64,000 nt of DNA from Cohnella laeviribosi DSM 21336 (GTDB taxonomy: Bacteria; Bacillota; Bacilli; Paenibacillales; Paenibacillaceae), in the NCBI RefSeq assembly GCF_000378425.1, contig NZ_KB899830.1, positions 1-64,000 of the forward strand, written 5' to 3'. Each line of letters opens with the position of its first letter. The first letter of the stretch is position 1. The position numbers and the translations under genes were made by a program. A model generated the notes under the pieces. That model ran no database searches. It had not been told where the DNA came from and saw nothing but the letters and a program-made list of their open reading frames with translations. Of the stretch, positions 25,044 through 27,782 are shown one piece after another.

Positions 25044-26228
25044 TTACGTCTTGGCCGGATATCCGCTGACGCACCAATCGTCGCCAAATCGTTCGATTTC
25101 GACCCGCTCGATCCGGATCGCCTCGCCCATCCTCTCGGGGCCTGGGAAGGCAAACGCCGAAGGCGCTTCTCCTCCGACCAGTTTGGGCGCGTAGAAAAGC
25201 ATAAGCTTGTCGACCAGACCCGCCTCGAGCAAGCTTCCGTTCAGGACGCCGCCCCCTTCGACCAGCACGGACGCGATCTCCCGGCGCCCCAGTTCGGCGA
25301 GCGCGGCGGCAAGATTGACCTTCGGGCCGCCGCCGCACGGAATCACCTCGACGCCTTTGCTCTCCAGCAGGCGGATTCGGCTGGCGTCTGCGCTCTCCGT
25401 CGTCAGCACGACCGTCTTCGCCTCGCCGTTCAGCACGCGGGCGGAATCGGGGATGCGCAGCCGCGAATCGACGACCACCCGAACCGGGTGCAGCCCGGGC
25501 ACGCTGAGCCTCGTGGTCAGCTCCGGGTCGTCCGCCAGCACGGTTTCCACGCCGACCATGATGGCGTTATTCCGGTGGCGCAGCGTGTGCACGGCTTCTC
25601 GCGCCTCGGGCCCCGTGATCCATTTGCTGTGGCCGCTTCGGGTCGCGATTTTGCCGTCGAGCGTGACGGCCGTCTTGACGGTGACAAACGGCATGCCGGT
25701 GACGATGTATTTGTTGAACGCTTCGTTCAGTCTGCGCGATTCCTCCTCGAGCAGACCGACCTGAACGTCGATGCCCTCTTCACGAAGCCGGGCGATGCCT
25801 CTGCCCGCGACCTTCGGATTCGGATCGGCCGTCGCGACGACAACGCGCGCAACGCCCTCGCGGATGAGCCGCTCGCAGCAGGGCGGCGTTTTGCCGTGGT
25901 GGCTGCACGGCTCCAGCGTCACGTAAACGGTGGCGCCTCGGGCCTCCGCGCCGGCCATATCGAGCGCATGCACCTCGGCGTGAGCCTCCCCTCTGCGGAG
26001 ATGCGCGCCGATGCCGACGATTCGCCCTTCCTTGACCACGACGCAGCCGACCATCGGGTTGATGCCCGTCTGACCGGCGGCGGAAGCCGCCATATTCAGC
26101 GCGAGCCGCATATAATACTCGTCGTTGATGCTGTCTTTCAGGCCGGCGCAGTCGTTGGGGATGCGATCCTTTAGCCCGCCATAATCGTTAGGTATGTGAT
26201 CTTTCAGCCTGCCGCGGATGTCGCCCAT
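25044..26228 (-). CDS. ribD: Bifunctional riboflavin biosynthesis protein RibD, with N-terminal repeats
   Basis: Deaminase plus reductase acting on the GTP cyclohydrolase II product. The deaminase half has the zinc site HAEVHAL and [11 protein letters not shown]; the reductase half begins near [15 protein letters not shown] and has [12 protein letters not shown]. The start is ATG 26228 behind AAGGAGG (a GTG at 26270 is an alternative). Residues 6-38 are three 11-residue repeats ([33 protein letters not shown]) before the conserved YYMRLAL start of the family, so the N terminus is extended by local duplication. First gene of the rib operon. Confidence 0.93.
26115..26213 (-). repeat. Three tandem 33-bp repeats at the 5' end of ribD
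   Basis: Three in-frame 33-base units each encode an 11-residue block of the form x-x-L-K-D-x-I-(P)-N-D-x. Units one and two are closest; the third grades into the normal start of RibD. It looks like slippage or duplication of the gene's own 5' end. Confidence 0.8.
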
Positions 26229-26298
26229 AAATCCTCCTTGGATGTCCGTCGGACTTACGTGGATGCCCACCGCTCCTCCCGGAAATTGCTAAAGCTAA

Positions 26299-26363
26299 TG
26301 CTAATGCTGCTTGCGCGCCCGCATTAGCGTCAAAAAACCCCCAGGGCGCTGCCCCGGGGGTTG
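26299..26363 (-). terminator. Terminator hairpin upstream of ribD
   Basis: On the minus strand ACAACCCCCGGGGC pairs with GCCCTGGGGGTT, followed by TTTTTT (26332-26363). A second hairpin, CTAATGC/GCATTAG (26299-26328), follows towards ribD. It lies about 100 nt before the ribD start and may be the expression platform of the FMN riboswitch, despite the long distance from the aptamer. Confidence 0.75.
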
Positions 26364-26871
26364 TCACACAGCGTTTTGATTCCGATTTACGCGGCATTAG
26401 GCAAATGTGAACCGAATCATCTCCAGCCGGAAATCTTCGGACATCGAATGCAAAACCGACAAACGCCCGACGCAAACGGCCTAACGGCGGTCGTCCGGCC
26501 AGTCCGCCTTGAATGCGGGAACGTTCGGAACGGGAACGGGCCTGTACCCGCAGTTCCTTCCGAATCGTTAACGATATCGCCAGAATTCCGCCCCGCATGA
26601 TCGTTCGAATCCTGTTCTGCACATCTTGCGCGTATGATCACGTCTTGCACGTATTCCGTTTAGCGCGCATCGCGCATTTTGCTCGCATTCGCGCTTACCA
26701 CGTCATGTACGTGGCGTATTGCCATGTTTTGCGAGCATTCGTGCATTGATCATATTTTGCGCGCATTATTGTGAAAAATAGAACAAGAAGATCCGGCTTA
26801 AGGACAGCAGTCGGCGCATATCCCGTGCGTTATCGGTTGCATGCCTAATGACGCGGCTCGGCCGCGCTGCG
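26364..26871. other. Long leader between FMN aptamer and terminator, no gene supported
   Basis: About 500 bases without a convincing reading frame on either strand. The part from 26628 to 26777 is built from degenerate short motifs (GCGCAT, GCGTAT, GCACGTA, TTTTGCG), giving many partial palindromes. If the rib operon is transcribed from in front of the aptamer, all of this is leader RNA. Confidence 0.6.
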
Positions 26872-27064
26872 CTTCCTTCTCCCATCCAGACTGTTACTGT
26901 CGGTCCCGGACTCGCACCGGGTCCACCGCATCACGCCCGCCGGTTATCCGGTAGCTGCGATGACGGGTCACGGACTGACGACGGCCGCTTTGCGCCGATA
27001 GTGCCTCGCTCGGCTGGCACCGCCGATCACCGCCGGTGGGGAATTGCACCCCGCCCCGAAGGTA
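26872..27064 (-). promoter_or_regulatory. FMN riboswitch (RFN element)
   Basis: On the minus strand the conserved RFN blocks are present in order: 5' ACCTTCGGGG (27055-27064), the AATTCCCCACCGGCGGT block just inside it, and the 3' end GTCTGGATGGGAGAAG (about 26875-26891). A variable arm of about 40 bases enlarges the element. FMN binding normally represses riboflavin genes, and the next genes on this strand are ribD-ribE-ribBA-ribH. The aptamer ends roughly 640 nt before ribD, much further than usual. Confidence 0.93.
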
Positions 27065-27315
27065 AGTCGCTGATTGAATGCAAGTTTACCACTCGTTTTC
27101 ACAAATTGCAAGAGCCCAGTCAAAGCGGAAACGCCTGCTTTGGGCTTCGCAAACGGTTTCATCGAAAAATATTATCAATTCTTTTGGGCCGACCCGATCA
27201 CGTTTCCGCTGACGCGCTTTTCTTACGGCACGTTTCTGCGGGTACGTTTCTTCTGGCACGTTTTTCGCCCACGTTTTTTAGGTGCGTTTCTGCAGATAGG
27301 TTCGGGCACCATTTT

Positions 27316-27448
27316 TAATTGCCTCAAACGCAATTATTTGTCCGGTATTCCGCTTGTTCGTGCATGCAGTTGCTTTTACGGCAATTAAAAGCCCGACCTT
27401 ACGGTTTTATCGGCTCGAGACAGGTTCTAGTTGCCTTAAATGCAATTA
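27316..27448. repeat. Dispersed palindromic repeat family, locus 2
   Basis: Three imperfect inverted repeats: TAATTGC...GCAATTA at 27316-27336, GCAGTTGC...GCAATTAAAA at 27366-27390, and TAGTTGC...GCAATTA at 27428-27448. Each has about 8-base arms around a small loop. The middle one is preceded by GTGCATGCAG, close to the CGCATGCAG unit at 55.5 kb. Confidence 0.7.
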
Positions 27449-27586
27449 AAACGCGGCCTTCCGCAGAACATGCCATTGCAATTGCTATAAAGTCACTTAT
27501 TTTTCAGCAAAGTGAACGACGCGACAGCCACGGCAGCCATGCGCCTACTTCGGCGGGCGGACAGCCGGCCGTGAAACTGTATGCTG

Positions 27587-27740
27587 CAGCCGGACAGGCA
27601 ATCGCCGTGCAAAAGCCAGCCATGGTGCAGCGGCCCAAATAGGCAAACACCGTGCAGCATCGTGCAGCTGCTGCCGGACAAGCAGACGTCGTCCAGCCGG
27701 ACAGGCAATCGCCGTACAGCCGGTAGCCGTACAGCAACCG
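27587..27740. repeat. Direct repeats with GCCGGACAGGCAATCGCCGT core
   Basis: A 24-base unit (CAGCCGGACAGGCAATC plus GCCGTRCA) occurs at 27587-27611 and again at 27694-27717, 107 bases apart. Short CCGTACAGCAA copies follow tandemly at about 27727-27748. Between them are further degenerate GTGCAGC words. Confidence 0.7.
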
Positions 27741-27782
27741 TACAGCAACGACCTCCGCGAAGGACGAGCGCCGTCGGCCAAC

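Follow-up and report, generated by a model that had tools for sequence, protein, structure and literature searches.

An FMN riboswitch in Cohnella laeviribosi DSM 21336 with probable control over a terminator some 500 bases downstream

FMN riboswitches of the Bacillus subtilis ribD type (RF00050) are among the closest described relatives of the leader analysed here. FMN stabilises helix P1 of the aptamer, and without ligand P1 is unstable and J1/2 flexible (PMC7573352), so that the parts stabilised by FMN are those on which the usual OFF logic turns. The B. subtilis ribD switch has been described as kinetically driven (PMC11476745), and a NusG-dependent pause in it raises termination (PMC12288461). 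In the compact FMN switches that we examined, the terminator lies about 20–85 nt past the aptamer (L206, L208, L211 and L212 from Bacilli, L001 and L004 from Cohnella, and switches from Clostridia). A first-pass annotation of the present locus had held that riboswitch platforms are normally adjacent to their aptamers, which is correct for these compact switches but not for the ribD leaders of Paenibacillales.

The window is a stretch of 64,000 nt from the genome of Cohnella laeviribosi DSM 21336, in which the following elements were located by computation.

26870..27067, minus strand: FMN riboswitch aptamer (RFN element) with enlarged variable arms (Rfam RF00050)
26332..26362, minus strand: intrinsic terminator T2, AACCCCCGGGGCAGCGCCCTGGGGGTTTTTT, with its 5′ arm at 26359–26352 (terminator search and folds)
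25044..26228, minus strand: ribD, heading a ribD-ribE-ribBA-ribH operon that reaches 22523 (Pfam)
27107..27112, minus strand: −35 element TTGCAA of the predicted leader promoter (sequence pattern)
27084..27092, minus strand: extended −10 element TGG-TAAACT (sequence pattern)

RF00050 was the only Rfam match in the window, scoring 89.3 bits against a gathering score of 66.2 and covering the full length of the model (1–138); the aptamer is thus complete, as had been annotated, and would be expected to bind FMN. Cohnella ribD aptamers are 169–203 nt long owing to their enlarged variable arms. The element sits upstream of the riboflavin genes ribD, ribE, ribBA and ribH, and the ribD product carries a RibD_C domain (198 bits) and a deaminase domain according to Pfam; its nearest named relatives come from Cohnella species. 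T2 (AACCCCCGGGGCAGCGCCCTGGGGGTT-TTTT, 26362–26332) begins 507 nt past the aptamer, and the ribD ATG at 26228, preceded by the RBS AGGAGG (26238–26233), lies 641 nt past it; no second strong terminator was found between aptamer and ribD with a home-made terminator finder. The earlier figures of a sole terminator about 500 bases downstream and a ribD start at about 640 were therefore accurate. The sequence running from the aptamer to T2 is predicted to fold more stably than shuffled sequences (z −6.5), as one large hairpin; all folds reported here are nearest-neighbour predictions, and the tests share related sequences. An inverted repeat, GCTAATGC...GCATTAGC, was seen in the fold at 26294–26328, between T2 and the ribD RBS.

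The predicted promoter, TTGCAA-17-TAAACT with an extended −10, lies 15 nt before the aptamer, and transcription of the leader likely starts near 27077, judging from these elements. Many Cohnella genomes have a similar promoter (TTGCAA-17-TAMACT, extended −10), which in some is placed further upstream and in a few was not found. The region between ppiB and the rib promoter contains a 14-nt tandem repeat, an inverted repeat TTTTAATTGC / GCAATTAAAA in three related copies and short CCGTACAGCAA arrays; the repeat regions are at 27227–27263, 27313–27451 and 27673–27749.

The distance between aptamer and terminator was compared in 37 Cohnella genomes (that of the window and 36 others), each with a ribD aptamer. 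A strong terminator was found 155–507 nt past the aptamer in all 37 (median 217), the gap in the window being the longest, and gaps of 85–390 nt are common in the ribD leaders of Paenibacillus and other Paenibacillales. At 507 nt, the platform in the window falls well outside the roughly 100 nt within which compact FMN switches place their terminator. The home-made terminator finder made some evident errors (hairpins within the platform helix among them), and so the tabulation of compact against long platforms was used for its trend only. The aptamer–terminator distance is a trait of the genus and largely of the order, and chance is ruled out as its explanation. In some of the Cohnella genomes there is also a second, compact FMN switch (L001, L004).

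The RNA between the aptamer and T2 appears to be looped out through conserved pairing of its ends, in which the following segments would take part.

26865..26872, minus strand: A, GCGCAGCG, aptamer 3′ edge and 5′ half of the bridge helix (covariation with C)
26366..26373, minus strand: C, CGCUGUGU, 3′ half of the bridge helix, just 5′ of T2 (covariation with A)
26842..26855, minus strand: 5′ arm of a second long-range helix, 13 of 14 positions paired in the window genome (inverted repeat and fold)
26390..26403, minus strand: 3′ arm of the second long-range helix (inverted repeat and fold)

In 28 dissimilar leaders from outside Cohnella, the longest stem between native A and C averaged 7.8 bp, compared with 6.4 bp when partners were exchanged, and none of 20,000 permutations reached the native value (p = 5e-5), a result unchanged when the Cohnella leaders were added. 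This statistic was one of three tried; it was picked after weaker tests based on energy, and it handles phylogeny solely through the removal of similar sequences. Duplex energies compared with exchanged partners were biased by composition outside Cohnella and gave only modest z values against shuffles (−1.7 and −1.2), and consequently stem length with permutation was used. Clades in which the sequences of A and C are wholly different still pair (GCGCAGCG:CGCUGUGY, AACGCGAA:UUCGUGUU and AAAGCGGGAA:UUCCCGCUUU). Within Cohnella, clear covariation was limited to one pair (G-C in 24, A-U in 6 and G-U in 5), and the A:C duplex of the window taken alone was not better than shuffles (p 0.43). No clear A:C stem, or just a weak T2 call, was obtained for some relatives (L121, G042). 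The sequence GGUCUGUUU directly precedes C in most relatives and is absent from the window. In compact relatives the counterpart of A:C, judged by eye, is a short local hairpin, and it therefore seems that the loop of this hairpin has been expanded.

When the leader was folded only as far as the end of the T2 5′ arm (CCCCGGGG, 26359–26352), this arm was predicted to pair with the 5′ strand of the aptamer.

27054..27061, minus strand: aptamer 5′ strand CUUCGGGG (end of the P1 5′ strand plus J1/2), predicted antiterminator partner (fold of the leader ending after the T2 5′ arm)

Over 76 leaders folded to the end of the arm, the mean probability of pairing with the aptamer 5′ strand was 0.62, compared with less than 0.06 for any other region; the aptamer 3′ strand, considered as a partner, was rejected as its pairing was weak in the folds (mean 0.05). 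The pairing folded for Cohnella joins CUUCGGGG to CCCCGRGG, a motif found in 21/36 T2 arms and absent from all 313 background terminators, which were taken from five Cohnella genomes (464 kb of the window genome and 400 kb of the four others); CCCC occurred in 30/36 and 18/313, respectively. Divergent T2 arms keep the same aptamer partner (CCCCGAAGG in L077, CCGAA in G047), and the arm pairs with the aptamer likewise in several compact FMN switches of Clostridia and Bacilli. The energy of the T2–aptamer duplex was a weaker signal (13 of the 36 rank within the top 5%, and 24 of 177 background terminators do as well as T2 of the window), and hence we rely on the enrichment of the motif and the constancy of the partner. 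The complementarity of T2 to the aptamer is unexceptional in the window, where 19 of 93 of its own GC-rich terminators match as well. The near invariance of the aptamer 5′ strand puts the antiterminator beyond a covariation test. With only the window to go on, neither A:C nor the antiterminator stands out, and the case made from these sequences is a comparative one. When full-length leaders were folded, most of those tested favoured T2 over the antiterminator (the difference being 11.8 kcal/mol in the window), and the antiterminator must therefore form kinetically, during transcription. The predictions thus give a mutually exclusive antiterminator that shares a strand with the aptamer.

We consider it likely that this is a genuine transcription-terminating FMN OFF riboswitch of ordinary type, in which the parts of the platform have moved far apart along the sequence while staying close in the folded RNA. 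Compact FMN switches have a hairpin directly after the aptamer; here that hairpin, formed by A and C, would have been retained while its loop grew to hundreds of nucleotides, and A:C would keep T2 beside the aptamer. Binding of FMN would occupy P1 and the J1/2 core and leave the T2 5′ arm free, so that T2 could form and transcription would stop before ribD. When no FMN is bound, the aptamer 5′ strand, CUUCGGGG, would be released and pair with the T2 5′ arm (CCCCGRGG), and the resulting antiterminator would let the rib operon be transcribed. The computation establishes the positions, the conserved layout, the covariation of A:C and the complementarity between T2 and the aptamer; we infer from these that FMN is bound, that the operon is regulated in this way and that the decision falls while the leader is being transcribed. 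Control by a distant terminator, one of the possibilities raised in the first-pass annotation, is supported by the spread of the long distance through the genus and much of the order, and by the complementarity of the T2 5′ arm and its flank to both ends of the aptamer. The comparison of leaders in relatives, proposed there as a check, gave a distant T2 in 37/37 Cohnella genomes and a bridge helix that covaries across families.

The other readings of the locus concern mainly the contents of the loop, in which three features were recognised.

26404..26841, minus strand: looped-out region, 438 nt (genome comparison and Pfam)
26620..26772, no strand assigned: diverged short repeats with units of 12–19 nt (repeat analysis)
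26769..26786, minus strand: B, TTGTTCTATTTTTCACAA, a conserved 18-mer with an operator-like dyad TTGTN-N8-CACAA (Cohnella comparison)

An insertion of repetitive DNA between aptamer and ribD had been put forward to explain the gap, and if recent it could have left the switch uncoupled or dead. The window does have the longest gap among the 37 genomes and diverged short repeats at 26620–26772, which may account for that record length, and to this local extent the suggestion was right. The arrangement itself is not accounted for in this way, because distant terminators also occur in relatives that have no such repeats; the gap, the bridge and T2 are kept throughout the genus, and the looped-out region (26404–26841) has no further copy in the genome, which makes a recent insertion very improbable. 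The repeat units include AATGCGCGCAAAA (minus strand), with no second copy elsewhere in the genome, and the small ORFs of the loop had no Pfam match. We also see little prospect that ribD has a separate promoter past the aptamer, a start site that the first-pass annotation had named as contrary evidence: the single promoter-like match in the window loop (TTTTCA-17-TATGAT, 26777–26749) is at the level expected by chance (p 0.30) and would still be upstream of T2, and Cohnella loops have no excess of promoters (mean p 0.69). The predicted promoter lies upstream of the aptamer instead.

The conserved 18-mer B is open to two further readings. It matches TTGTG-N8-CACAA at eight or more of ten positions in 32 of 37 Cohnella leaders, compared with about 5% of shuffled leaders; B of the window has one mismatch to this 18-bp dyad, which is perfect in six relatives. 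Redox repressors of the Rex type bind the operator TTGTGAANNNNTTCACAA, and B might be an operator for Rex, or for a Crp/Fnr relative with the same spacing, acting as a roadblock inside the transcribed leader. This is possible, if doubtful; were it true, the operon would read both FMN and redox state, and the repressor would supplement the riboswitch rather than replace it. It is a serious lead because the same dyad precedes nadA, ndh and ctaA in other Cohnella (in the window genome the intergenic dyads precede nadA and, with one mismatch, ctaA), because exact copies of the common ribD version of B precede mqnE-like (G013) and cyoA/qoxA-like (G008) genes, and because the genome has a rex-like gene (PF06971, 75 bits); the genes at these other sites were, however, named by reading translations, without family searches. 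With at most one mismatch the dyad has 14 matches genome-wide, including B, compared with 4 for a control pattern. The Rex- or Fnr-like dyads outside the ribD leader are those of the Cohnella loci L223, L225, L229, L230, L232, L237, L238, L260 and L265 (genes read as nadA, ndh, ctaA, mqnE and cyoA/qoxA). Against an operator, the left half of B is TTGTT or TTGTC rather than TTGTG in most leaders, operators do not usually lie as far as about 290 nt inside a transcript, and the T-run of B is on the transcript strand in every case. Alternatively, B could be an RNA polymerase pause of the NusG type, like that known from B. subtilis ribD (PMC12288461), or could belong to a weak initial terminator some 80 nt past the aptamer, either of which would buy time for FMN binding with T2 as the main stop. 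This reading, which we regard as rather unlikely, draws on a TTNTTT motif within B in 28/37 Cohnella and on weak hairpins ahead of the U-run in many leaders (e.g. G008, G032), but B of the window has no TTNTTT on the non-template strand and no hairpin was found before it. Moreover, six genomes have lost the T-run and yet keep the dyad, in perfect form, which favours an operator, and the exact motif is almost confined to ribD leaders, unlike a general pause signal. Two other roles for B were rejected. An anti-P1 role was suggested by complementarity between the U-run and the aptamer 3′ strand, yet the two paired in only a minority of folds ending just after B and not in the window, and as an RNA hairpin, its stems extend far past TGT/ACA in few relatives only. 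More speculatively, and with the chances rather against it, leaders across Paenibacillales could be two-input devices in which FMN binding and a redox-repressor roadblock (Rex or Crp/Fnr type) in the opened loop jointly set rib transcription.

The likely OFF switch with its separated platform suggests that a riboswitch platform need not adjoin its aptamer in sequence, and that a short bridge helix may suffice across 150–500 nt. Searches for terminators limited to the first 100–150 nt past the aptamer would miss leaders of the Paenibacillales type. The long gap makes kinetic control with a long delay testable, and the conserved 18-mer B allows a possible connection of riboflavin synthesis with redox state to be tested directly.

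We found no description of the looped-out arrangement in the literature searched, many subscription papers being outside that search. Another known system resembles the window in the length of its platform; it differs in having two terminators 28 bp apart, and its abstract describes no looped-out bridge. The Rex and Crp/Fnr operators share with B the geometry of an 18-bp dyad and the presence of comparable sites in front of the genes read as nadA, ndh and ctaA; they differ in that one half-site of B is imperfect in most leaders and that B lies inside a transcribed riboswitch leader. The additional FMN switch of Cohnella (L001, L004) has the same aptamer class and, like the window, a helix with a U-rich segment followed by a GC-rich terminator, but it is compact, with the terminator about 46 nt past the aptamer. 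With the B. subtilis ribD type (RF00050) the window has in common the aptamer, the rib operon as target, the predicted terminator/antiterminator logic and a helix directly after P1; in B. subtilis the terminator is tens of nucleotides away rather than 507, whereas the helix in the window has a loop of hundreds of nucleotides that contains a conserved 18-mer.
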